Part shown: positions 6,301 to 53,566 of the stretch, piece after piece
How positions within the stretch are numbered: the stretch's first letter is position 1
Layout: each line of letters opens with the position of its first letter
Assembly (NCBI GenBank): GCA_038373865.1
Contig: JAXGGA010003911.1
Span: 31,571 to 95,570 of the forward strand
Length of the DNA: 64,000 nt
Origin: Uloborus plumipes
Lineage: Eukaryota; Arthropoda; Arachnida; Araneae; Uloboridae
Direction: 5' to 3'
Made by a program: the position numbers and the translations under genes
The notes under the pieces: generated by a model
Told to the model about the DNA's origin: nothing
The model's database searches: none
What the model saw: the letters and a program-made list of their open reading frames with translations, nothing else

Positions 6301-9300
6301 GTGAATTTCAAACACTTGTGACATTTTTCGATGCATTTTCTGTCCAGTTCTCTTGGACAAAAGTTGCAACGTCCTCTTTTTTTGACATTCTGGGGAAGTG
6401 ACCCCAAGGGTCTTGTGTGCAAAAAATGCAATTCGGGAAAAATAAAACACAATAATAGCATTATTTTGAATAGAAAACTAGAAGAATAAAAGCCACAAAA
6501 GGTCATTAAAAACAAATGGTTGATTAACAAGAAATATTAAACAGAAATTGCATTGGGGTCACATATGACTCCAAGGAACCCACGAGGGTTAAACCGATAA
6601 TGGTATTTATATCATAAAAAATACTTATATTTTTCTACTTAATATTCTCTTAATTTTAATAATTTTAATTCAAAACCAATCTTCTGAGGTTAAAAAACAA
6701 AACGTCGCTACTGATATTTGACTTGGCTATTGTAGACGAATAATTAGAACAAAGCTGCCAAAGCACAGTTGCTGCAGACTATTTTAAGAAAGTTTTTATC
6801 TACAACATATCTGTTAATAATATACATAATTTTCTGTACAAAATAACTATTGTTTATTCGTAGTGATCGACGACCACTTTTTAAACTCGTAAATATCTAT
6901 AAACCACTCAAGAATAACTTCAGAAAGATATTCTTTATACCTTGTAATTTCATTATTTTTACTTTAGTATTTTTTCTCTAGCTAAACTTATTTCTAAACT
7001 GCTAAACTTCGTTACACGTTTGAATTAATTTTCATGAAAAAGAAGTAAAATCATTTTATTATTAGTTAACTGTCGTTGAATTGTAAATACATGTATAGGG
7101 ATTCCATTTTTTCAATTTTGTCTTTATTCAGAATGTGGTAAACCAGTAGGAGGTAGAGTTATTGGCGGACAGAAAGCAAAGGTGCAAGATTATCCATGGC
7201 TGGTAAGTAGAACTACACTATAAAAAATTGATGTTATTTATACAGTAGAATACAGCTAATTTTATAGAAATTTTACGCTAATAAACAGTAAAATTGCTAA
7301 TACTGCAGTAGTAAACTAAAATTGCTAGTATTCAGCAATTACCTGTAAAATTGCTAGTTTCAGTTCACATTTTACCGTTTTAAAGTGCAACCTCTGCTGC
7401 CAATATTATACTGTTGATATTACGGCATAATACAGCTAATGTTATTGTAATATTGCTACTTTTGCATTAATAAACTGTGAAATGGCTAGTTTTACAGTGA
7501 AAAACTGTAAAATAGCTAGTTTACAGGTTATTGCTGTGCTTTTACAGTTTTAAACTGGTACCTCTGCTGCCAGTAATATACTGTAAAAACAACAACTTTC
7601 TTTTGCAGTGTAACGTTGAAAGAAAAATAAAGAACAGAAGAATTAAATTAAATCGATGACCTTTATATTTTGTATTTAAATAACAACAGCAATGAAAAAA
7701 AAATTGTTGTTTATACCGTATAATACAGCCAATTTTACAGCTATATAGCAGTAATAAACCGTAAAATAGCTAATTTTGCAGTAATAAACTGTTAAATTGC
7801 TAGTTTTACAGTATCAACTTGTAAAATTTCTTTTTCTTGCATTTATTTAAAAGAATTGTTTGGAAAATAACTTATTTTCTGAAGCAAATGCACCCACAGC
7901 TCGATCGTAGCATCTTAAGACTGCAGTTTCGTCCTTATTGTGGACTCCTCAGTTAGGAATAGCCAATGATCAAGCTGGAGGCAAAGATCTACCATTCGCA
8001 TCAGTTCGGGTGCATTTGCTTCAGTTCTGCTATAGCCCTGGCTTATGGGCGGTAACTCATTGCATATTACCCAGCTTTTGCCTTCAAATTTCGAGTTGAG
8101 CCGCACCATGATTTGCAGACGCTCGCTGGTATGATAAAATCACTTTATCTACCAGTTTGTTGGCAATCTTAGCTACAATAAGAGGATCTTTGCCTCCAGC
8201 TCGATCATTGGCTATTCTTAACTGAGGAGTCCACAATAAAGACGAAACTGCAGTCTTTGGATGCTATGATCGAGCTATGAGTGCATTTGCTTCAGTTCTG
8301 CCTTAGCCCTGGCTTATGGGCGGTAGCTCATTGCATATTACCCAGCTTTTGCCTTCAAATTTCGAGTTGAACCGCACCATGTTTTGCGGACGCTCGCTGG
8401 TAAGATAAATTCACTTTATCTACCAGTTTGTTGGCAATCTTAGCTACAATAAGAGGATCTTTGCCTCCAGCTCGATCATTGGCTATTTCTAACTGAGGAG
8501 TCCACAATAAGGACGAAACTGCAGTCTTAGGATGCTATGATCGAGCTGTGGGTGCATTTGCTTCAGTTCTGCCTTAGCCCTGGCTTATGGGCAGTAACTC
8601 ATTGCAACTTATTTTCTGTTTCTCTGTATGGTTTAATAATCTTATTACAGCGAAATATAGTGCCAAAAGTTAAATTTTGAAATCCATTCCAACATCTAAC
8701 TATGAAATTTGCTTTTATTTTAGGTGGCCATACATGTTCAAAGTGATGGAAAAACAAAGTCCCGCTTTAATTGCGCTGCAACCCTTATTCATCCAGAGTG
8801 GGCTATCACTGCTGCCCATTGTATCCAAAAGTAAGCTTCAGTTTGAACTTCCGCCAATGTTTAAAATAATGGAAACTTTACAGCTACTATATTTTACAAC
8901 TATTTACAACAATAAATCAATTCTATGTAGAGTATGAATGAATGAAGTGAAAAGGGGGTGCCCCTAAGGCAGCGCAAGCACTGCGACCACAGGTCTATTG
9001 TACTATCCCCGTTAGAACCCTAAAAGAGCCCAATAGCTGAAATGAACTTAAGCAGATGTCTAACAGGAACGCTGGAGAGTTCAAAGGGATCTAAACAATG
9101 GTACCTCAAGTGTTCAAATCTGTAGGCAGATGTCGAGTATCTATAATAAGAGTAATGCAAGTTAAAGCATTTTCCATTTAAATTACCATGGGTTCCAGTA
9201 CGTTCTTTAGTTCTAAAACGTTAAAAAGTGTAACTAAAGTGAGCTAAAATGTTTTATGCAATGAGAAGATAAAACATTGTTGCTGAACTGTGCTGCTGTT

Positions 9301-25700: not shown

Positions 25701-28700
25701 CTCTTGACCTTCAAAAAAATTTATTGGTGAATATAAGGCTCCTTTCCCCTCCAAAAAAAATATTATAGCCCTGAAACTAAGGAAAAAGGAAAAAAAAGGG
25801 GGGGCGTTTTAAAAAAAATTGGGACGTGATGGGGGAAAACGGGGGTCATATTCGGATTCAGGGGGTCATTTTACATAAGAATCAGCCTTCAAAATACCAG
25901 AAGCATTTTCAAGGTTTTTTTTTGTCGAACCGTGTTATCACTCGTTTTGGTATAATAATAGCATTAACACTGTGTAATATCCATTTGAAAATCTAATTTT
26001 CCTTAATTGCAGTTAGGTTTACACAAGCAAAATCCAGAAACAGGGAAGTGGAGGTTTATCTGTGCTGCATCCCTCATCCATCCAGAATGGGCTATAACTG
26101 CAGCCCATTGCGTAAAAAAGTAATGTTGGATTTACAATTGACTCTTTTTTAATAAGTGTGGTTATACCTTTATATTTTAATGTGTGGAAAATGTGCATAC
26201 ATACCTAAAGAATAGATTTACACAGTTCTAACATTTACATGTGTGATTTGAAGAAAAATTGAAACAATCAAAGGATCTAAAGAAGTAATCGTGGTAATAA
26301 AACAAAATTGATTTCCGTTAAAACCGATTACGACAAATTTTGCTTTTTGTTCGTTTAAGTGACGATGTTCGTTAAGCACATTCGCCAGATGATTCAGCCC
26401 TTAGTCAGATAGCCAAACCGGCAGTCTAAACGTTTTTCCAGTAAACAGAAGATTTCTATCTGCAGTTTTGTGCCAAACCAAGAGTAGAATTTTGCAATAC
26501 ACCACCAGCTCGCTTATTCCATCCATGAACTGAAGTTTCGTGCTTATTATGCACTCATCAGCATGGAATAGAAATTAAACTAGCTGGAGGCAGAAATCCT
26601 CTTATAGAGCAAAGTGAGCCAACAAAAACTGGTAGCTAATTTGAAATTAGAACACCAGCAATCGGTACAGTACCACTTGAAAACTTTGAGGCAAAGTTTG
26701 GGTATAAAGCAGTAAGTAACCACCCTACGCATGTTTCTGCCTTAGCCCTGGTTTATGGGTGGTTACTTACTGCTTTATACAAGAGTAGAATTATATGGTG
26801 AATAAACACGTTACATGACCGATTGCCTTGCTTCTTTCTTTTCATTTTTCCAATCACTGTGTTACTTTAAATCCCCTTATTAACCTTAATATGCTTACTC
26901 TAGCCTCCCAGGCAATGGAACTATCACCAGAGGAAAATGTTATGATGAGACAGGAAAGCAAATCCGATGTTTTCATCCTCCAAACCAACTGCAGCTCGCT
27001 CTCGCGAAAACTCAAGGCAAAAAGCGAGAGCTTGAAATTGCCGAAGTCATTCCGTATCCCAAGTACAATCCTTCAAAATTTCCGCACGACATGGCTCTCT
27101 TAAAGCTGAAGACAAGAGCAACATGCTCGAGATCTCTTATGCTTATATGTGTCACTGAAGGCGAACACATGGACTACCCTAAAAGTCCTGTTGTTATGGC
27201 TGGATGGGGTACGACTGATGCTGACAAACGTAAGTCTCATTCAATTTTTCTCGGAAAATGTGTTTCAAGTGCTATGGGTGTCACGGATGAGAGCTGGGCA
27301 ATGATAATTTTTGCAAAATATGGGTAATTTGAAAGAAAAATTCGATTCGGCTGGGTTTAAAACATTCTTCGATTTGGTAACAACTATAGGCAACTCCTAG
27401 ATTCTGCTTAGAGTTTTCATTACTCGATAAATTTCTCATAAGGAAAAAAAAATCTTTTGTGATTAGGCATGTTGGCATATCTAGTTAATCACCACAACAC
27501 AATTTAAAAGTTGGAGCAAAATTCATTTCAAGTCACACATAATCCGAAATTCGAAAAAGTAAAAATGATTTAAGTAAGTCTTAGTGTAGCTGAAGTTTTT
27601 TACACTAAAAAATAAGTTTTATTCTTACAGTATAAAACAGCTAATTTTATAGTAAAAAACCGTACAAATTGCTGATTTTTACAGTAATAAACTGTAAAAA
27701 ATCTAATTTTACAGTAGTTTTTTTCATCAAGTAAATTACTAAGCATATACCAAATCGGTTTACGTCATGCAGAACCTGAATTTTGCAGGGTATAACCGTC
27801 ATTTCCTACTACGAACCTAAATGAAATACCTCGTTCCAAGAGTTATTCAGGTGATAGCAAAGAATACTATAATAAAAATAGCAGAACCTTAAGCCACTGT
27901 GAAGAATACAAATAATTCAGATTTCAAGAGAAGATTCTAAAAAATAAATAAAATAAGAAATAACGATGCAGGAGGTATTTAATTGCCTAATTCTGCTCGT
28001 ATGGAAGAAACGGCATTAGCCCTCACAAATGCTGCAGCGTCTTCCTGAACATATAGACGACGCACCGCACTGGAGGCTATTAGGCAACAGTTATTTAAAA
28101 ATATTACTTATTTTTGTATACCGATTTTCTCTCAGTAGACATTTTACATGATAACCATTAAATAAGCATGATTATTTTATCTTTGTGCACAGTACGATTT
28201 TTTACAGAGCTGCAAAAAAAAAGGGGGATTTTCCCTATCGCTTAGTAAGTTAAACACGTATTGCGCTATAAAAATAGCAAATTTACTTAAAATCATTTAT
28301 TTTAGCTGGAAGAAGTGATAAGTTAAAGCAAACGAAGTTAAAAGTTGAGCCAAAGGAGGAATGCTCGATATCTTCAGACTATGATGGTTTTCTGTGTGCA
28401 ACCGGAAAGGAATTTGGTGGTACACCATGCAAGGTAAGCTTCATTGGGACGTTCGGTATCAAAACCAGTTAATTTGATTTTAAAAACTGTACGGAAGAGA
28501 GAGAAAAACATTTCATGCTCTGGCCACTTTTTTACTTCCTTTTACGTAGTAAAGGAAGAATTGTGATCGCGAAAAAAATGCACTCAAATTTGGGTCTAAA
28601 TTTTGATTTTGCTAACCCCCGGAAGAATGTTCAGTAGTTTTTTTGACCTCTCAGCACGTGCATCTGTACCTACCAACATATAAACAGCCGAAAAATCCTT

Positions 28701-39187: not shown

Positions 39188-42100
39188 ATGAATTGTAAAA
39201 TTGGCTGGTACATTGGTATTTTATTCTTTCTGCTACAGGTAGAGCATTTTTTTAATTTTTAAAAAGGAAGGAAACAATGTTTTTTTCCTAAATTTTATTA
39301 CATCGCTTGAGATATTATTTTTCGCAGATTTTTACTGAAAATGTTTCTTCTGCACTGCAAAAAAAAAAACTTGCTTTTACAGTATACTGCCGTGCTAAGC
39401 GCAAAATTCGTATATGCAGACGACTTCAAAAGGAGAAATTGCCGTTTAAAGTCTTGCTTCTCCATGTATTTAATTCAGATGAAACTTTTTCAAATAATTT
39501 TTTTAAATATTTCCCATGGACAAATGACCAAAAAAATTGATATTTAGGTGAAATATGGGACAAAGAATCACGTGGTGACCGTAACTCAATTTTGACAAAA
39601 AGTGCAGATACGACTTTTGCGCTTAGCACGGCAGTATAGTACTGGCAGCAGAGATTTCAATTTAAAACAGTAAAAGCACACTAATAAACAGTAAAACTAG
39701 CTATTTTACAGTTTATTTACTGTAAAACTAGCAATTTTACCGTTTATTACTGTAAAATTAGCCATTCTGCCACAAAATTAGCGGTATTATACTGTAGAAA
39801 CAACAGTGTAATACTGGCAGCAGAGGTTCCAGTTTAAAACTGTAAAATTCACTGTAAAGGGAAAAGTTCTTTTGTCCATATGTTTGAAATTTTTCGATAA
39901 GGATTAAAAATTTTTAACATTAGTTGCATGAATATTTAGATAAATGTTTCCTTCAGTAAAATGGGTTGATTTAATAATTTAATCTGGAAAAAAAAATGTT
40001 TTCTTAAAATTAGAAATTTTGTTTTCTGATTATTTATTTATTTATTTGAAATAAACGATTGAATTCGTAAAATATACTTGAAAAATTGTACATAAAAACA
40101 AAATCTGCTTTTTTTTTCATTACTTTACTGAAAAAAAACGACCATTTATTGGAATTTTCATTTTTAAATTAAATATCTTTTATGCAGGTTATACCAAAGG
40201 CGAACTCCGCAGAATGCAGTAAGTATATTTGCAATCAGATTTTAATTTTTAAAATAAGAAATTGCTGCCTTAAAATATCATTGTTAACAACATAAGTGTT
40301 AAAGATATGACATGCTATTGTCATTTTAAGTTTTTAAAACGCTACAAAATGAAGAGCTATGTTTTATTTCCTGTAGCACTTAACTTTTACGGGACAAAGC
40401 AAAATGCAATTTTTTATTCAAATTAAGACATATGTACGTTTTTCTTTTTCGTGTTTCAATGAACATAAACTATTTACGCAATGATGTAAAAACATTTAAA
40501 ATAAAAATTAGAAGCTATATTTTGCTGTTCGTTTTTAAAATGCTATGACTTATTTTATACAATACTTATGTTTCAAATGTGGCAATATGTCCAAGATAAA
40601 CCTTGGACATATTGCTCACTATTCCATACACTAATTTAAAAATCAAAATAATACCCTTTTTTGACAGTTGAAATTGTGGATTTTATTTAGATTTCAAAGA
40701 ACTAGCGTTTTGTGTACTTGACAGTTAAGGAGACACTATGCTACGCCAGAATCTTCTAGAAGGATTTTTAACTCAGAATCAATATACTGCTTTATAAGCA
40801 ATACAACCATTATTTGTTACTCATTAGCTATTTTTTGTTACCATGAATATTTTCAAGTTATGAAACAGTCATCTTATTTTTGCCGCTTGGAGTTGTTCAA
40901 TGCAAACTAACCTTTCTGGAGGATTCCAATTTTGAAGTATAATTAATTGTCCTCACTGACCAGGAAATCACACGAGAGTGACAGATATATTTTAAAAAGC
41001 TGCAGCAAACAGAACATTGTTATCAGGCCCGACATTTAGGGGAGGCAGGGCGTGTCAATTGCCCCCCCCCCTGACTTTGGGAAATCAATGTATTGGCGTA
41101 TGAGTGGGCGTGGTTTTTGCCACTTTTTGGTAAATTTTACATTGTGTACACACCCTTTGCCCCCCCCCCCCCTGGAAAATTTCAAAATGACGTCGCTGAG
41201 TGTTATGCATGCTTCTGGACTCACAAACTCTTTGTCTTGTGCACTTGCCCCCGCTATCAAAATATAAGGTCTAGAAGTTTGCTGAAATATTAAAAACGTC
41301 GCCAAGTTTATCGAGTGTGAGTGAGTTATGGAAGACAGCTTTTACACGATTTGTGGGTGGATGCCAACGGTAAAATTGAGCGATCAATTTCTCGCCGTGT
41401 CTAAATTTGGCACTTTTTTAAAAAATGTATAATAGTTTAAAACTTTATAAATCGATAACGGTAGGACAAGGGCAAATTATTTTTGCATCAAAAATCTGTC
41501 TCAAGATGCTCTTCCGATTACTCCTGTTTAATTTTTTTGCTCGTGTGATTCCCTGGAAAGTAACAAGCATAAATTTGATTGCTTAAAAAAAAGTGAACAG
41601 CGCTCTTTGAGGATGAAGTTTAATTATATTGCTAAATATTCCTGTCAGGAATGCACATATTCTTTTACATCTTTCTTCATTTTAGCGTGTGGTAAAGCAG
41701 TCGGTGGACGAGTAGTTGGGGGAGCACTAGCGGACGTTCAAAGTTATCCTTGGTTGGTAAGTGAAGCTCGTTATCGTGATTAATAGATACACTATTTAAA
41801 TTTTAAAAACAGCTTTTATTTCATTTCAAGCACATGTTCAAATGTACATGTAACTAAGTTATATAAAAAAGTGTTAAAGAAAAGTTTTTTAATATTATTA
41901 GAACAATTTTTAAATATTTATTATTATTATTATTATCATCATTATTATTTTTACTTCATTTGACATCTAAAGAGCTATTTTAAGTCAACTTTGGAAGTTG
42001 TAAATTTTTCCTTCAACTCTAATTATTGAAGGGCTTGGAGGATGAAGAGGGTTTGTTACATTTTTAAAAATGAGCACTCTGGACAATGGTAATCAAGGAA

Positions 42101-45100
42101 TACAAGTAAGCAAATAAAACTTGGTACATCAAAAGGTAGATGTCATTAGACTAATTTCATATGTACACCAACGACAAGCATAGTTTTAGCCAGCTTAAAA
42201 CTAAAAAACACAGTAATAAACTGTAATATTAACAATTTGCAGTTTATTACTTTAAAATTAGCAGTTTTGCGGTTTTTTACTGTAAAATTAGAAGTATTGC
42301 AGTTTATTACTATAAAATTAGCTTTGTTTAGCTGTAAAAACGACTTTTTTTTTTTTGCTGTGTGAACGCTATTTTTTGTTTTGTTATGGAACAGCATTAA
42401 CATGGTGTGAGATCCAATTGAAGATATAATTTTCTTTAATTGCAGTTAGCCTTACATAAGCAAGATAAAGAATCAGAACAATGGTCGTTTTCTTGTGCTG
42501 CATCCTTGATCCATCCAGAATACGCTATAACTGCAGCCCATTGCGTAAAAAAGTAATGTTGGATTTACAATTGAGTTTTTATTAATAACTATGGTTATAC
42601 CTTTATATTTTAATGCATGGAAAATGTTGATGTAAACATTAAGAATAATTTTTCAGTTCTAACATTTATATGAGGTATTCAAACATTTCTGGGTTGTATT
42701 CTGCTGAAGACGAATGCTTTCTTCAAACGCGACAATTAATACATTTCAATAAAAATAATAATTTATAAAGATAATTAGCAAGAGAAAACAAAATCCGCAA
42801 CTATGCGTGTGATTTCTTAATAAAAAAATTGATTACCTTTTAAAACTGTACCTTATTAATCTTTACCTTATTAACCTTTTGAAAATAAGAACTAACTTAA
42901 ATCTGATGAAATATTAAAACATATTCCAGCAAAGCCTTCGAACAACATAAAACATGCAATTGAATGTAAAGTAAATCCTGACGTCGCACAGTGGTCGATT
43001 TTGCCAATCTAGCTGGACAAAAATACTTTGGTTCGTCAAATCGAGTAGCAAGTATTATTATTGTTGGTATATCAATAATAAACATAAAACAACATTAAAA
43101 GAAGTGTCTGTGACTAAGATCTGCACTAGAACTACTGTCTGAAGGATTGCAGTCTATGTTATAGTTGTTTTTCCATTGCAACTCAGTTTCTTCAGATCAT
43201 CTAGTCCCGTATGTCTTAGGTCTTAGAATTATTTTGGTGCTTTATAGTTACAGGGGTACTTTGTCATCACTCGAATAATAGCATGTATTAAGTTCGTTCT
43301 ATATTTTTTAACCCAGAAAATGGTTTTTATGAACTGTTTTCGAATGTTTCAAAATATTTTATTTGTAAGTGATCAAAGCTTTATGTTAGAAAAAAACATT
43401 TGTGATACTGATTATCCTTGAATTGCATTTAACTTAGTTTCTATTATTTTACTATAGCATAGATATTTTTCTCTATGAAAAAACTTTTAAATTTCAGTAG
43501 TAGCTTTTCGAGAACGTACTTAGCAATTTCTGCATCATCTCGTTTTCCAGCGAAACGAAGACTATTTAGAGAGTCTTTTTTTTTTTTTTTTTGAGTTAGT
43601 GCCTTGAGTTACAGACGTAGCTTTTCGGTTTATAGTTTCGTGTTGATGTCTGATTCTTTGAAAAAAAAGTTGGTCAACCGCGATCTATGGACTTTTGTTG
43701 TATTGCCAAAGAACCTGGGAGTCTTATGCATCGAATAACTGTTGAGTAAAATATGATAAATCTTTGTAAAAAAATGGAATTTGTTTATTAAGTATATGCG
43801 CATATACTTTTTTTTTCTTTTAGTAGAAAAAGAAGAGTGCTTTCACCGCGTTTCGTTAAATCGTACACACAACCTGTTACTATAGTATTTCTAATGCTTA
43901 ACCCATTAATGCCTGACATTTTTTTTTTCAACGATACTTTGTATACTGGTTAGAAATAGTGTTTAATGGACAGGAAAAATAGTTAAAAAATTATCATGTA
44001 AAAAATAAATTTTTTATTTAAGAAAGAAAAATCGTCCCTTAAAAGGGACGCTAGGCACCAGAGGGTACATACTTTTTTACCAAAAATTTTTTTCTGCCAA
44101 CGATGTAATATTGAAAATGACAATTTATAAGAAGAAATAAAAGCGGTAATTTACATAAACTGGGAAGTAGATTCAGAGAACAAGGAAATATTGGTGTTGT
44201 TGAGTATGAAAGTCAGCAAAACATTTGTTCTGCAAACCTACGTATTGCATTTGCTGGGGCAATCAACTTCAATGGGCACATCTTACCTGAGTCTTATTTA
44301 AAGCAATAGAACTACTAGCCCCATAATACCTAACTCAATCCGGTACTCTTGAGCTCAATGCATTTTGTACAGCAACTTTTAAAATAAAAATGAAGAGCGG
44401 CTACCACCATTTTTTAGAGTGAATCAAAAACTGGTAGTTCCCGATATTTGATGCATGGGATCTTTTTCCCTGTGCAACGATTGTACCGAGCAAACCATAT
44501 ATATATGGTTCATCAATTTCAATTACTTTCTTTTCGCTGTTGAACAATCGCTTAGCCTTTACAATAGGATGAACTCCATGAAGATTCAATGCAATAGTTA
44601 TGACATTGCTATTATTCCACCGAACCAACGTAATATTATTTAACCTGTCATCGACATTTATTCAAAACTTCCTCTCTTCTCTTTTTTGAACAACGTAACT
44701 TTAGTTCATGAGCATATTTTAATCCGATTCTTGCACAAAACCTTTCTGAGACAAATAATCACGTAGGAGCGCAAGAGAAGTAAATAAATTGTCACAGTAG
44801 AGATCGAAATTGGCATTCTCAGGGAATTCTGAAATTAAATCTGCAACCCCCCCTCCCCTTTTCCAAACAACAGACACACATGCAATCCTTGAATTCTTCA
44901 TCAAGGTGAAATGCTAAGCTTCTGAAACAGCTTAGGGCTTCTTCACCAGTCAGACTAAACAATAATAAACACCTAAATACATAATGGAAAAGTAATTAAA
45001 TACAACGAATAATTAGTGTTTTAAAGAACTACATTTTTGAAATAGCTTTCTTTCAAAACTTACCTTGAGTATTTTTTGTAATTAAAAAAAAAAAGAAGAG

Positions 45101-48100
45101 AAAATATTTAAGAACGTTGTATGATTAAGTTTGTATATTAATTAATTTAGATTAATAAGATTTTTAAAATAAAATAAGTTTTAAAAATGACAATTATTAT
45201 CTGTTTTTCAGTCTAGAAACATTTACTAACTTTTTTTACATAAATTATAGATTCTAAGCAAGAAATCAGCAACGGTTAAACAATGCAGCCGTTGGTGCCT
45301 AGCGTCCCTTTTTAGGGACGTTCTTAAATTGCTATGAAATCCTAAAAAAATTTAAAATTTACAAAATTGCAAAAAAAGGTAAACTAAAACATCGATCAAA
45401 GTAGCACATATATTAAACGCAAATAGATTTACTTGTTAATAACTTTAAAAACTTAGCTTTTTGTTCTTGAGACTGTGAACGATGTAATTTTTGATAAAGA
45501 TCATAATCAAATGGCTACAGATCACACTTTACAGCGGTTATGTGCAGAAATCTGTTAATACAGAATTGAAGCAATACCAAAGTAATAATTGAACACAATT
45601 ATTTGGCTAAAATGTTCATTTTTGGAAAATTCAGACTCACTTTTTGGACCGTCCCTAAAAAGGGACGCTAGGCATTAATGGGTTAATCTCATACTATCCT
45701 TAAGGGCATTTAAATTGCAAAATTTTCTACACTATTTTTGCCCTTATCCATACTCCAAGTATTAAAATGTGTTGTATCTTTGATAATACAATGTATTTAA
45801 CGTAGCACTCAAACACAATTATTGTAGACAAATATTTTTTCGCTCAGTTATGTGGAGACGTAAATGCTGTTATTACAATCTAAACTACGTTCTAAAACGT
45901 TCGAGAGCTAATATTTTTTAACAGTAATACAAGGCTGACAAACAAGGTTTACAAATAAATTTAACAACAGGCGGTGGTTAAAAAGTACCCCCCCCCCCTA
46001 CACACACACACACTCCCGAAATAAAATTTTCTCTGATTTTAAATTCATCGTTTCAGACGAAAAGTCTACAGTTCCAAGAAACATTACTCATATTGCCGGC
46101 AAGATCAAGGTATAATCTTTTTTGTCAACATATCTGGTACATAAAAATATAACTTAGAGGGCGGAGACTTGTGGAGCATTTTTTTGCTGCCCTAATAACT
46201 TTTAGTGTTATGGTGTAAAATTCATTAATTTTTCATGTAGTTAAAAATATATTTAAAATTCGTACTAAATGTACGGCCCTTTAAGAGAATAAACTGCTTG
46301 GATGACAAAATGACAGTATATAACCACAAATTTTTTAAAACAACAGAGACAACAAGTAGCCAAAGTCCTTTATCTCCCTTCTAAAGCATCATAAAATTTA
46401 CTATTACAATCCGTGTTCTTCAATCTTTTATAGGAAAAATTTCAAGAACTAACTATTTAAATTAGACATGGTTTCTTGCTTTGTAGATATTTCAGTTGTC
46501 AAAAAAAAATATTTTGCCAAAAAATAACGATGCTGAATTTTTGATTTTTGTCCAGCTAGATTTAAAAAATCGACCACTGTGCGTCGCACGCTTACAATCC
46601 TCAAGGTTGAATTTAAAGCTGTCAGATATATCTTTTAATTCCATTTGGAAAGCCGTCAATCTACAACCCATTTCAATCTGTCAATCCGAAAAGAACCGCT
46701 TACAGTTCCAATGGGCTGGCGAGGGACAACTGCAGAAGCAGTAGCCCCTTAATAATGTCATAATAACGTATGTAATCGCAGACGCTCATTTGGCTAGAAA
46801 TAATACAATTTAGCACTTTTCTCCGGAAATCAACTGAAAGCTTCCACCATCCAACCAGCACGTTCAATGGAATCTTATCCACAGTTGCAACATTATTTTA
46901 ATTGAGTTCAGCCACGTTATGAGGACGTGTACTAAAGGAAAAGATGCATACAGCTGTGGAGGAGATCCCACTGAGCGTGATAGTGGAGTAGTGGAAGCTT
47001 TCATTTGACGTCTCTTATCGGGATAACGACCATCATTATGGTGTCATATTCAAAACCAACAAATAGCATGTATAGTATGGTAAATGGCATGATTTTTTTT
47101 CAATGTTTGTTAACAATATAATATTCAATGTTTTCGAAGATCTGTCTCTTATGTCTAATATTCATTACGACCCTACATAAATATACAAACTGTTCATTTT
47201 CGCCTGTATTCACCACATTACACAACCCTAGATCTGACAGAAAACCAGCGGTATAACTCTTTTTCCACTCATCAGAAGATTTATATCTACTCTGCAGTTA
47301 AGTGTCAGACTGAGAGTCGAATAGTATAATGAAAAAGAACGTTACATGTCTGACTGCCTTGCTTCTTTTTATTTTTGTCTTTATTTTTAAATTATTGATT
47401 TACAAGGCGTATTTTTAAAGTAATTACCGTTTTAGTATAAATTAAAAAACGGCAAAGATATTTTTATAATATTTTTTACATGAAAGACCATACCTTAAAC
47501 TAATTTTCTACATAATTGCCACCAATGGAAAGCCATTTATCATATCGTACAATCAGCTTTTGAAGTCCCTCTTCAAAGAAATATGCACCTACGTTGTCAG
47601 CCACTGCATTACGATCATCCCGACATCATTGTTACGGCACTAGCCGACAAGGTGGTGCTTCAGAGGCAAAAACATGTAGTCACTGGAAGTTCGATCTGGG
47701 CTTATTTTGCACAAAATCTTCATTAATGACCGAATTTCGACCACTCCATTACTCGTCGCGCGCATTAGAGTGGCCGTCTTTGAACGCTCGGACCCAAATC
47801 CTAAATACCCCATCGCTCATAATGGTTTCACCATGTACTGGAGAAATCTTGTGATGAATATAGACAGCTTTTTTAGAGTTAAAACACAAATTATCGCACG
47901 TACCTCTCAGTCGGCGGCACTCTCAATCATTGGACGCATTTGAAGCTGATTGTACGTGATAGGTGACTTACATTTAATGGCAATTATGTAGAAAAGTAGG
48001 TTAAGGCATGGGCTTTCACGTAAAAATACAATTGTAAGGATATTTCTTCCTGTTTTTCATTTATATCAAAACGGTACTTACTTACAAAATATGTCTCGTA

Positions 48101-51100
48101 TTTTGAGATCTAACTAGCTACTTGGCCCGGCTCTGCACAGGACCTAATTTGAGGGAAAATGTGATGTCAAGTGACGCGTGTGTTTAAAAGTCGCGATTAA
48201 ATTAAAGTCAATAGTTTGCTAGAACACAGTACGAAAAATTAATCAATCGCTAAAAAAATTTTAAATGCTTCCGTTACAGGAAAATCCTAAAGCAAAAGCA
48301 AAAATTTATTTGAGAAAGTTCAAGAAAAAAATGGCAAAACCTTTTTCTCATTAATAATTTATTTCACCATATTTAATTTCTTTCACGCTCGTGCAGACGA
48401 TTTTTATAAATTCAATTTAAAATGCATATTTCCAAATTTTCAAATGCCCATATCTTTCTTCAGGGTGGAGATATCGATTAGTGGTTTGAAAACTTTCGAA
48501 AGGAAACTTTCCTAACAGGTATTTTTTGCGTTCTTTCGAATGAGACCAAAATCGAGAGGATCCGATAAGTATTTCGCCAGATAGAGCAATTTTGAAGTAC
48601 TTTATTCGAAATTCGAACGGATCGGTACTTTTCTCGCTCAAAAACCACCCTAAGATCCTTCCCGGGTGCCCAAGTATCTCCCTGCCAAATTTCGTCCAGA
48701 TCCGACGTAAACTGTGGATTTGTATAAGGAACACACAAAAACACATATATTCTTTGTTTTATTTATGTGGATATACTTACTCTAGCGTTCCAAAAGACGG
48801 GTTTGTTGCCAGAGGAAAATGTTATGATGAGACAGGCAAGCGAGTCCGATGTTTTCATCCTCCAAACAAACTGCAGCTAGCTCTGGCCAGAACTCAAGGT
48901 AAAACGCCCGAGCTTCAAATCGCCAAAGTCATCCCGCATCCCAAGTATAATCCTACAGAGGTATATCACGATATCGCTCTTTTAAAGCTGAAGAAAAGAA
49001 TAACGTGCTCGAGATCTCTCATGCTCGTATGTGTGAGTGAAGGCAGATACATGGATTACCCGAAAAGTCATGTTATTATGGCTGGATGGGGTCAGACTAA
49101 AGGTAGTGGAGGTAAGTTTCTTTTAGGAATTAATATTACTTTATTCATTAAATGTGTACCTCAGAACCAGACAAACGTAAGTCCATTTTCGTCATTTTGC
49201 AGTAGAAGGCGAAAACGATTGCCGGATACATGCAAAGGATGGGACTCGCGCTCTTTTCACGCTGCTAAATAATTGTGAAAGAATTTGTTTTATAGAATAC
49301 TGTTTTAATGGGTCGAAGTGGAATAAGATTCTACATACAATGAAGCAAAAAAGTGAAAATCGTGATTTTTGGACTTACGTCGTTCTGGTTCTGAGGTACA
49401 GAAATAAGGATTACAAAATTTTAAAATTAGATATTTAAAAACTTGGATAAATGTTTCTTTTAGTGAAAAATGTTGTAGAATGATATTTAATAAAAATCCC
49501 TATCGTTTAAATAATGCAAAACTAATACGTATTGTTCAATTAAAGTAGCATTTTTTTATTTATGTTTATATAATTCAGGCGGAAGAAGTTCGGAGTTGAA
49601 GCAAACAAAGTTAAAAGTCAAGTCACAGGAGGAATGCTCGAAGTCCACAGAGGTTGATGGTGTTCTGTGTACAACTGGAGAGGACTTTCGTGGTACACCA
49701 TGCAAGGTAAGCTTGATGCAGGCATTCGGTTTCAAAACTGGTACACCGTGCAAGGTAAGCTTGATGCAGGCATTCGGTTTCAAAACTGGTACACCGTGCA
49801 AGGTAAGCTTGATGCAGGCATTCGGTTTCAAAACTGGTACACCGTGCAAGGTAAGCTTGATGCAATCATTCGGTTTCAAAACTGGTACACCGTGCAAGGT
49901 AAGCTTGATGCAGGTATTCGGTTTCAAAACTGGTACACCGTGCAAGGTAAGCTTGATGCAGGCATTCGGTTTCAAAACTAGTTGAATAGATTTTCAAAGA
50001 TTAACAGGAGAAAAAAAAAACACGCTCTGTCGAATTCATTTTAGCCAAAATGCAGTCGAAACTTTACTGCAAAAAAATAAACTGTTGATTTCACAGAATA
50101 ATACTGGAAACAGAGGTTTCAGTTTAAAACTGTTAAATGCACAGTAATAAACTGTAAAATTGGCAATTTAACAGTTCTAATTCTTTATACTTTTACGGCT
50201 GTCTTTCTCTATTTCTTATACTTAGTGGTCGTTTTGTATTGGTAATCGTTTCTATTGACTCAACTAATTGGAACAATGTCAGCAAGTTCAGATGAAGAAC
50301 CTGTACAAAAAAGGAGGTGTATTGTTTTGAATGTCACACACAAATTTGTAAACTTTTCAGAAATGTTCTTCCCAAGAACACACATCTTAGTTGTGCTTGA
50401 GCCGTTGGGCAAAAACCATTGGCGCCGTTTAGTGAAAGATGGTTTCATTTATTCCAAAAACAGCATTGCACACAAAAAAGAACGTTTTTCCTTTTAGTTT
50501 TTTAAATATTTTTTTAATCAAAAATTTATACTTGTTTTTATAGGAGAACAATTAGTAATAATAAAGACAATTTTTGAGGCTTTTCAAATATCTTTTAAAG
50601 GTAATGGTGCATTTCACGGTATTTGTGACATAGGGGTGTCCATAACAAAACTTTTTAAAAGTTTAAAATTTTATATATATATTGAAAAAGTACATTCTAA
50701 AGTATATGAACATCATATTGTTTTCATAGTTCACTTTATATTATGTTTGTAATTGTACTCAGAACGTTGAAAATGCAATTTTCACTGTTACGAACTATAC
50801 ATTGAATTTTTCTTTAAATCTGGCTTACACCGATTTTTAAGCCAAAACTGGTACTTGAGACAGATAAAGTAAAGACTCACCTCTAATATAGCTAACAATT
50901 TTTATCAAAAAGTGCGCTCTATAAAAAATTATGGATTGTGAAAATGATGACTGTAGAGTCCGTAACAATAGTTGGAATAAAAGTTTAGTTTTTAAAGAAA
51001 AATTCAATGTAGAGTCCGTAACAATGAAAATTGCATTTTCAATGTTTTGAATGCAATTACAAACAAACATAATATAAAGTGAACTATGAAAACAATATGA

Positions 51101-53566
51101 TGTTTATATACTTTAGAATGTACTTTTTCAATATATATAAAAATTTTAAACTTTTAAACAGCTTTGTTACGGACACCCCTATGTCACAAATACCGTGAAA
51201 TGCCCCTAATGCAAAAACGTCAAAAAACAACGTAACTTACATACACAAAACACACTTTTTACACTTGTTCTTGAGACAGAGAAAAAACATTAGAATTTGT
51301 TGAATAGAAAATTACAAATGCCAATCAATGGCTTTACACATAATTTTAGTATATAAAATCTTACTTTTAAACTTTAAAATCGATATCTTGAAAAATAGCA
51401 TTTTTTTTTCAAAGATGGCGTTGTTGAAAAGAGTGTATGCAATAAATTCATACCCTAAACCAGTGGTGGCCAACCCGCGGCACGCGTGCCACAATGTGGC
51501 ACGGCAGAGCAGTAACAGTGGCACGCGAAGACTTTTTGAAAAAATTCTCAAATTGAGGGGAAAATGTTAAAATGTCAATCTCAAAAATATTGATAAGAGC
51601 TAAAACCCTTGAACTTATAAATACAATGATATTATGACGATTAAGTGTCAGGAGGCTGGTTTACAAATTGTTTTAACTACAATATTGCAAAGTACTTAGC
51701 GTTAGCTTCGGATATCCAACGAAAGCTGTGACGCTACAGACAATGCTTTGTAAAGCATATTTGTGCTTGACACGAATGAAACTTTCGATGCTGCAGAATC
51801 TATTCTTGATCTGCAATAATTTCAGCTACGGATGAAGAAATTTTTGAAAAAGTTAACTTAGCATGTAAAATTAAGAAACCAGATTGGACAAAATTCGGTA
51901 TGGTTGCACAAATGAAGATCCTTAAATTGTTTTGTTACATTACTTGAAAATAATTTGGGGAAAAAAAAACTTCAAAAGTATCATCGAATTATTTATCGCA
52001 AACTCCTTGCCAAAGATTGAGACTTTTTCTCTGCTGGTGACCCTGTAGAGTTCACTATTAACAAACTACGAATTAGAGCTCTGAATGTTTTGTGAACTTT
52101 TACCAGGAGAAAGAGACTAGAACGGCGAGTTACTCCTTCATTGAAATGTGCAATAGCTATCCAAAGGAAAAATAGCCATACGATTTTAGAATTTTTGGGG
52201 AGTGTGTTTTTTAAATGTCTGGAAGAAAAGCAATGAGGACTTGCTACTTAGGAATGAGGAATAGCAAATGAATTCAGCTCTGCATCTCTTATTATCCGGC
52301 GTTTCAGTAATATAAATTTAAGATAGTACAAAAAAAAAGTTTCCTAAACCAGTATAGGCTATCTACATTCTTTTATGATGAAACTTCAGTTTCTTTTTCT
52401 CTACTTTGGAGAAAAAAGAATAAAACATTAAATTCAATACTGAAAGTATCAACCGAAATTTAATAATTTTTCAATAATATATGGAGAAAATTTTACACCT
52501 ATTTTGAGTATACATTCAGTGTTAGGTTTGATGATTTTCAGGATTATATATGTAAAAAAAAATGCTGATATTTTCAAATTCTTTATCTATTTCTCTGTAA
52601 GACACTAGGTGTTACCCTTCTGAAATCCACATCAGAATTACTGATTTTGCATTGGTAATCAAAGAAAGAGCTTTCTTCAACAAAAAAGTCATCCACGTTA
52701 TATAGAAATTTGTAAATTTGTACCAACAATTTTTTTTTTACATTTACACATTTTAGCTGTCTGATGCTATTGTAGATTTGGTTCAAAATACGCTTCTAAA
52801 CAAATATTTTTTGTTCTGAATGTAGAAAAATCTAAATAACGTTGAATATTAATTGATAGCACTTAAAACACTTAAACTTCTTGGGATTCTCAAGAACTAA
52901 TCCTAAATTAAAAACTTGATAAAACAGATACAGACTCATAAACCACATTAAGTACAGACTGTTTAATTTTTAGAATAGAGTGTTTATGTTATTTGTTTCT
53001 CTTTTAAGCATTAGCCAACTGAGAACTTATAAAAGTGTTTATTAACGATAACTTTTAAGTTTGGACAAGTTTTATTTTTATTATCATGGATTTCAATTGC
53101 TCACTGCTCAGATGTACGAGAAAAAATGTTTCATTTGAGTAAGAATTACTACATAATCAGCCAACCTAAAATCTATTTTTAACCTTAAAAAAAGTTTCAG
53201 ATTGTTGGAAAAATACAATGTGGCACGCTGAGCTTTTTCTCTCCAGATAGTGGCACTCTCCCTAAAAAGGTTGGCCACCCCTGCCCTAAACGGTGCACCT
53301 TTTAAATAAATGCATTATGTCTACCCCATATATATCTATATAAAACAGTTCATTCCTTTTTTCAGGGGGATTCAGGTGGACCATTGATGTACGTCCAGCA
53401 AGGAATTAATTACATAACTGGAGTAGTTTCGCACGGAACTGTAGATTGCCAAATTAGTGGCGAAGTGAAGTTTACTAAGGTTTCCGATCATCTAAGATGG
53501 ATACGCCGATACGTATCATTAGATGAAGTTAAGAAATTTACAGAAGATAATGATTATGCTATTTAG
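39188..53566 (+). CDS. Secreted S1 serine protease, gene 3 (7 coding exons; repeated splice donor)
   Basis: Joined exons: 39188-39238, 40188-40218, 41686-41756, 42446-42552, 48786-49111, 49579-49706, 53366-53566; the frame is open for 304 aa. The signal peptide (core IGILFFLLQ) spans exons 1-2. A C-x-C propeptide is followed by activation site R36|VVGG. The triad is His83, Asp149 (HDIAL) and Ser241 (GDSGGP). The pocket has Thr189, Gly216 and Val226, with Ser214 kept, so the core should be competent. The C terminus is acidic-basic (DEVKKFTEDNDYAI), like gene 2. Exon 6 ends in a 48-bp tandem array whose every unit copies the donor AAG|GTAAGC in phase 0; the first donor (49706) gives a product colinear with its paralogs, later donors would add 16-aa modules. 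Intron 4 (6.2 kb) and intron 6 (3.7 kb) contain several transposons. The chance ORF 48592-49272 reads through exon 5. The substrate is unknown. Confidence 0.92.
39355..39860. repeat. ACTGTAAAA repeat in gene 3 intron 1, split by a MITE
   Basis: The family sequence starts CACTGCAAAAAAAAAAAC at 39354, continues TTTTACAGTATA, and resumes after 39636 with GGCAGCAGAGATTTCAATTT and several palindromes. The break is exactly the 39387-39634 insertion. Confidence 0.78.
39387..39634. mobile_element. 248-bp TA-target MITE nested in the ACTGTAAAA repeat
   Basis: CTGCCGTGCTAAGCGCAAAA at the left is perfectly mirrored at the right, with weaker pairing inward (TCGTATATGC / GCAGATACGA). TA flanks at 39385-39386 and 39635-39636. 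Removing it rejoins the host repeat as ACAGTA..TAGTACTGGCAGCAG. The ORFs across it are chance. Confidence 0.85.
41029..41215. repeat. C/G-tract dispersed repeat, copy 2, in gene 3 intron 2
   Basis: CAGGCCCGACATTTAGGGGA, GGGAAATCAATGTATTGG, GAGTGGGCGTGGTTTTTG and a C-tract before CTGGAAAATTT match 14520-14710. ORFs rich in Pro here are artefacts. Confidence 0.65.
42180..42362. repeat. ACTGTAAAA repeat in gene 3 intron 3
   Basis: It includes AACACAGTAATAAACTGTAA, GTTTATTACTTTAAAATTAG and an end TTTTTTTTTGCTGTG. It lies about 85 bp before exon 4. Confidence 0.7.
43902..45682. mobile_element. piggyBac-like transposon, 1781 bp, TTAA duplication
   Basis: Perfect 13-bp ends CCCATTAATGCCT are flanked by TTAA at 43898-43901 and 45683-45686. 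A palindromic subterminal motif, CGTCCCTTAAAAGGGACGCT, lies at 44033, is inverted at 45294-45320, and a third copy abuts the right end at 45651-45671. Inside, minus-strand fragments of a piggyBac-type transposase remain. It is internally deleted and probably immobile without a helper. Confidence 0.9.
44401..44904 (-). pseudogene. piggyBac-like transposase fragments
   Basis: Fragment one (44719-44904) carries FDLYCDNLFTSLALLRDYLS, the conserved block around the second catalytic Asp of DDE_Tnp_1_7 transposases. Fragment two (44401-44628) carries MVRWNNSNVITIALN and ends in IHSKKWW, matching the third-Asp and KKWW regions. A stop after QESD and missing sequence between the pieces show it is defective. 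The zinc-binding tail is not seen. Confidence 0.8.
46587..48780. other. Right part of gene 3 intron 4; includes sequence shared with gene 2 intron 4
   Basis: ACGTTACATGTCTGACTGCC and TTGCTTCTTTTTATTTTTG near 47340 match gene 2 at 26807-26850, so the intron predates the duplication. 48390-48770 reads like a repeat end (CCCTGCCAAATTTCGTCC, then AACACACAAAAACACATAT) directly before exon 5; its family is not recognised. Confidence 0.5.
47480..48015. pseudogene. mariner remnant with two inverted C-terminal ends
   Basis: The minus strand near 47490-47600 reads AYFFEEGLQKLIVRYDKWLS and GGNYVEN. The plus strand near 47945-48000 reads KLIVRDR, a stop and NGNYVEK. Both match the C terminus of mariner transposases (YDKCL..GNYVEK), so two ends of the same element face each other. 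The piece between has no recognised catalytic motif. Confidence 0.62.
49692..49979 (+). repeat. Six 48-bp repeats that duplicate the exon 6 splice donor of gene 3
   Basis: Units start at 49692, 49740, 49788, 49836, 49884 and 49932. Each comprises the last 15 exon bases (GGTACACCRTGCAAG), then GTAAGCTTGATGCAGGCATT and CGGTTTCAAAACT. Potential donors follow 49706, 49754, 49802, 49850, 49898 and 49946. The frame stays open across all units as GTPCKVSLMQAFGFKT and stops at TGA (49982) after the last one. Unit 1 has A (CCATGC) as in gene 2, while units 2-6 have G; units 4 and 5 carry private changes. Gene 2 has just one unit at this place. Confidence 0.95.
50060..50180. repeat. ACTGTAAAA repeat fragment in gene 3 intron 6
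   Basis: TTTACTGCAAAAAAATAAAC, ATACTGGAAACAGAGGTTTC and CAGTAATAAACTGTAAAATT identify it. Confidence 0.7.
50603..51210. mobile_element. Fold-back element with ~200-bp arms in gene 3 intron 6
   Basis: GCATTTCACGGTATTTGTGA with ACATAGGGGTGTCC at the left is mirrored at 51150-51207. The arms continue through CATCATATTGTTTTCATAGT and AACGTTGAAAATGCAATTTT (imperfect). The centre is near 50900. No coding content; the target duplication is not resolved. Confidence 0.7.
51461..53283. mobile_element. hAT-family transposon remnant, 8-bp target duplication
   Basis: The left end CAGTGGTGGCCAACCCGCGG and right end GGTTGGCCACCCCTG are short imperfect inverted repeats of hAT type. CCCTAAAC flanks both sides exactly (51453-51460 and 53284-53291). 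The subterminal GTGGCACG motif recurs near both ends. The 1.8-kb interior has only decayed coding traces (for example DEEIFEKVNLACKI near 51830). It sits in gene 3 intron 6, ending 74 bp before the exon with the catalytic Ser. Confidence 0.88.

Follow-up and report, generated by a model that had tools for sequence, protein, structure and literature searches.

The DNA considered here, a stretch of 64,000 nucleotides of Uloborus plumipes that we call the window, is taken from a contig of 95,570 bases, of which it makes up positions 31571-95570; the whole assembly comprises 25,906 contigs and 1.42 Gb. The window contains three S1 protease genes in head-to-tail order, with GDSGGP encoded at about 13,556, 30,975 and 53,366. 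Two more family genes (A and B) are located upstream on the same contig, a close relative (C) lies on contig C3579, and a further relative on contig C23247. The third gene of the window is the subject of this analysis. Its exons, read in the spliced frame of the forward strand, encode the activation site (GGR/VVGG; 41686..41756), the catalytic His (TAAHC; 42446..42552), the catalytic Asp within DIALL together with GWG (48786..49111), a 128-nt segment (49579..49706) and a last coding portion that starts with the GDSGGP of the catalytic Ser (53366..53566). The exon set starts at 41686; exons before this position were not located. Introns of 467 and 3659 nt flank the 128-nt exon.

The five located exons of gene 3 join into one open frame with AG/GT at all inner borders, and the S1 motifs R/VVGG, AAHC, DIALL and GDSGGP are all present in that frame. 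The product matches the Pfam Trypsin profile (PF00089) over positions 1-220 of 220 with an E value of 2.1e-39. Among the matches listed, its closest database protein is P0001, chymotrypsin B-like and from another spider, Uloborus diversus, to which it is 73% identical across 214 residues. P0001 falls in one clade with gene 3, gene 2 and gene C in our tree. The end branch leading to gene 3 is the shortest of seven (0.09 vs 0.24-0.41), and dN/dS is 0.40 relative to gene 2 and 0.34 relative to gene C. On these grounds gene 3 looks like a constrained, working gene. We considered a pseudogene and ruled it out given the open spliced frame, the motifs, the two dN/dS values and the short branch.

The unusual feature of gene 3 lies at the end of the 128-nt exon, where Tandem Repeats Finder (TRF) reports an array on the forward strand at 49691..49979 with 6.0 copies of period 48, 97% matches, 0% indels and a score of 550. 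In the TRF phase each unit takes in the last 16 bases of the exon and the first 32 of the intron, so that the exon's own donor lies inside a tandem unit contiguous with the exon, the arrangement of the donor-spanning VNTRs of CBS and ABCA7. The six units that the earlier note described, each with the donor GTAAGC, are borne out by both the TRF result and the donors themselves, which recur every 48 bases: donor 1, at the ancestral exon end, at 49707..49712, and donors 2 to 6 at 49755..49760, 49803..49808, 49851..49856, 49899..49904 and 49947..49952. Unit starts are likewise spaced 48 apart, five times in succession. From -6 to +14 there is no difference among the six donors. The intronic part of the unit finds six matches in the window at up to three mismatches, where shuffled sequence gives an expectation of 0.00. 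Units 2, 3 and 6 are identical, while unit 4 carries two changes of its own and unit 5 one. The third base of a Pro codon is A in unit 1 and G in units 2-6, the very difference that the note had picked out as shared by the later units and missing from the first.

Comparison with the paralogues places this array in time. Gene 2 contains a single matching unit in the same place (28418..28465, forward strand), with one donor at the position of donor 1, in agreement with the note. Any two units of the array differ at no more than 3 of 48 bases, whereas each differs from the gene 2 unit at 7-9 of 48, with 7-8 of these differences in the 32 intron bases. Beyond unit 6 the intron of gene 3 aligns once more with that of gene 2. 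Gene 2, B and C all have A at this third codon position of Pro. The ancestral base was therefore probably A, and it was a copy with G that was amplified; this upholds the suggestion of a recent spread from a variant copy. We read the corresponding exon ends of genes 1, 2, A, B and C and of the C23247 relative, setting other distant relatives aside, and at 6/6 there is one donor and no array. An assembly-wide search, which skips very common words, returned the array as one match only. Since all six paralogous ends have a single donor and the array occurs once in the assembly, the expansion is younger than the gene copies. Taken as a comparison of sequences, these results show a 48-bp segment across the exon-intron border that was recently duplicated and amplified to six, copying the donor along with it. 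A dispersed copy of the array elsewhere was also considered and is rejected on the single match of the same search, within its exclusion of very common words.

The same observations bear on whether the array is an assembly artefact, its unit number being wrong or the array being absent from the animal. There is only a single assembly to draw on and the contig is short (95,570 bases), which would favour such an error. Against it, units 1, 4 and 5 can be told apart by private substitutions, gene 2 bears out the ancestral unit, the intron aligns again past unit 6, and the sequence of the window is without any N. We accordingly give an artefact very little probability.

Any of the six donors can be joined to the exon at 53366 with the frame kept, inserting from zero to five modules just before GDSGGP. 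Counting from the exon that starts at 41686, the products predicted for donors 1 to 6 are 276, 292, 308, 324, 340 and 356 residues long. The note had proposed that every donor preserves the frame, that no unit contains an in-frame stop, that the modules enter immediately before the catalytic GDSGGP and that each contributes one extra Cys, and all of this is seen in the spliced translations: the six joins are open, and the modules precede GDSGGP in every join of donors 2-6. Where the note gave a single module sequence, modules 1-3 read VSLMQAFGFKTGTPCK, and the fourth (VSLMQSFGFKTGTPCK) and the fifth (VSLMQVFGFKTGTPCK) are forms in which S and V replace A. If the intron were retained instead, the frame would stay open across all six units and end just beyond unit 6 at a stop at 49983..49985 (forward strand), after 97 open residues counted from 49692.

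The preserved frame is nonetheless weak evidence of function, because the chance that a unit keeps the frame without a stop is about 0.51 x 1/3 = 0.17, and we reject it as proof of function for the same reason. Nor does the start of the intron before the expansion give any sign of coding constraint when gene 2 and gene 3 are compared, with 5/12 residues differing in what is a tiny sample.

Every module closes with TGTPCK, and an insert therefore adds its residues ahead of the Cys in C-x-GDSGGP. We take this Cys, with the Lys and Gly that follow, to be Cys191, Lys192 and Gly193 in chymotrypsin numbering, and the loop at the insertion site is presumably the S1 pocket loop. Among 120 homologues listed of 5549 matches, the gap from Cys to GDSGG is one residue in 120/120, the alignments show the same C-x-GDSGGP register, and the distance from the previous conserved Cys to Cys191 is 7-12 residues, again in 120/120. 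The module-free form of gene 3 has 10 residues here and falls within this range, whereas one module makes 26 and takes the long forms outside the usual S1 loop length. The product with one module still matches PF00089 (E 2.9e-36). In longer proteins C-x-GDSGGP would remain, preceded by a greatly extended loop, and there would be additional cysteines; such proteins are probably inactive or altered.

These loop lengths speak to a reading that builds on the note's inference of later-donor use, in which several donors are substantially used and proteins with 1-5 modules differ in specificity or regulation. Its appeal is that six donors are equal and six products open, and the variation of 7-12 residues before Cys191 among the 120 listed homologues indicates that the loop tolerates some change. 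On the other hand, the 26 residues produced by even one module exceed what any of those 120 homologues has. A database search with two modules found no module-bearing protein: among 36 candidates it left only P0001, which is insert-free. P0001 has the same GTPCKGDSGGP as gene 3 but no module before it, and its N-terminal portion shows no match to the beginning of S1. Published donor competition in two human studies favours the first donor (PMC9225289, PMC5954066). We regard substantial use of several donors as unlikely.

How a spliceosome would choose among the six donors can be considered from their sequence, their setting and precedent. In a simple duplex calculation the U1 match is equal for all of them, at -9.5 kcal/mol compared with -14.0 for the full consensus. 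Because the donors are identical, position should decide among them, and an exon between introns of 467 and 3659 nt presents an exon-definition setting. Carranza et al. 2022 (PMC9225289) give about 60% for choice of the downstream donor across human competing-donor events overall; where the two donors are nearly equal, it is the upstream one that wins in 60%, and it is preferred if both introns are long. The same study describes five exon-defined human minigenes in which the donors were strong and identical and the introns 365 nt long; every one spliced exclusively at the upstream donor. In larger constructs, weakening both donors caused the exon to be skipped (PMC9225289). For the ABCA7 donor repeat, retention of one unit is 2 +/- 1%, a figure lowered by nonsense-mediated decay, since cycloheximide raised the frameshifted transcripts (PMC5954066). 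Such decay would not act on the in-frame forms of gene 3.

The overall downstream preference of about 60% (PMC9225289), together with a frame open as far as donor 6, could suggest that this intron-proximal donor is the main site, in which case most of the array would be exonised and gene 3 would make mainly a five-module protein. Under exon definition, however, near-equal donors show the opposite preference (PMC9225289), and the other family exon ends that we read stop at the donor-1 position. Predicted RNA accessibility is highest at donor 1 (0.0059, vs 0.0008-0.0026 for donors 2-6, with 0.017 in gene 2 and 0.19 in gene 1), although the values for all six are low and carry little weight. Main use of donor 6 seems to us quite unlikely.

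Two further roles for the array can be set against the same data. Placed as they are at the head of a long intron, the six identical U1 matches might act as a U1-binding cluster that raises splicing efficiency or shields the 3.7-kb intron from early polyadenylation; yet the six paralogues read manage with one donor and none of the analyses run speaks for this role, which we find highly improbable. The AAG/GT in each unit recalls intron gain by AGGT duplication, in which one unit provides a donor as well as an acceptor and splicing removes introns within the array, as in the model and the fission-yeast genes with repeated 24-bp AGGT segments presented in PMC4974935. The 18 nt upstream of the AGs within the units, however, have a pyrimidine fraction of 0.39-0.44, a crude measure of acceptor quality, and intron removal inside the array is hardly credible.

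We therefore favour the interpretation that gene 3 contains a young donor-spanning minisatellite, in which splicing probably falls on donor 1 for the most part and only rarely produces longer in-frame forms. This interpretation is supported by the identical donors, the single-donor paralogues, the young units, the intact-looking gene, the minigenes that used only the upstream donor, the 2% in ABCA7 and the chance of about 0.17 of keeping the frame; counted against it are the roughly 60% downstream choice overall, the upstream choice of only 60% for near-equal donors, the decay of ABCA7 transcripts and the human origin of the precedents. From the published rules of donor competition and the ABCA7 repeat, all human, donor 1 would be expected in most mRNA, giving an ordinary protease. 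Occasional use of donors 2-6 would yield in-frame proteins with 1-5 modules rather than frameshifts. Since the unit has no stop and its length divides by three, the array may be tolerated and free to drift in length. A bolder version, in which animals differ in donor number and each makes graded proteases with 0-5 sixteen-residue modules, we consider very unlikely. Were it true, a change in repeat number would translate directly into protease diversity, with no frameshift, in a loop beside the S1 pocket.

Repeats that copy a donor are already known; what sets gene 3 apart is that the frame is kept and that the insertion falls in the active-site region of a protease. A literature search, with subscription papers mostly outside its coverage, found no frame-preserving donor array in a protease gene. 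The original report of the repeat in human CBS is Lievers 2001, which reportedly treats its splicing. According to PMC2630376, the 31-bp CBS VNTR, c.1444_1467+7(16_21), has 24 coding and 7 intron bases per unit, each unit copying the exon-intron border in the layout found in gene 3, and its 16-21 units show single-base differences. In contrast to gene 3, it belongs to a human enzyme gene, its length of 31 is not a multiple of three and its unit number varies between people (PMC2630376). In intron 18 of ABCA7 the normal donor opens the first 25-bp unit and recurs in the others. Those units are purely intronic, however, and because 25 does not divide by three their use is out of frame; their number varies between people from about 12 to 427 (PMC5954066). 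Tandem duplication that spans a border or repeats AGGT likewise copies splice signals, as in the intron gain of potato RdRp, where a new intron was made (PMC4974935); the gene 3 units, by the crude pyrimidine measure, seem to be without a good acceptor.

Identical and evenly spaced donors in a natural exon offer a clean test of how an animal spliceosome chooses among equals, and since every donor choice keeps the frame, nonsense-mediated decay should not hide the outcome. The gene 3 locus also tests whether a protein gains new segments from a donor repeat that preserves the frame. If donor 1 alone is used, the array is an ordinary minisatellite.

Several other repeats are present in the window. 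A partly palindromic 21-base motif, ACAGTAATAAACTGTAAAATT, occurs at 19 places between 7275 and 62781 with up to three mismatches (0.00 expected), frequently as short tandem arrays of about 30 bp, one of them at 50141 within the intron that follows the donor array; it is a dispersed satellite-like element. The same intron holds a 600-bp element (50606-51206) composed of nested inverted repeats, whose arms of 67-103 nt are 90-94% complementary and give it the appearance of a foldback or MITE-like element. At 47473-48026, inverted-repeat arms of 70 nt that are 81% complementary and 414 nt apart possibly mark a decayed DNA transposon. TRF also reports longer tandem arrays at 1685-2702, with units of about 147 or 439 bp, and at 8010-8606, with a unit of 271 bp.
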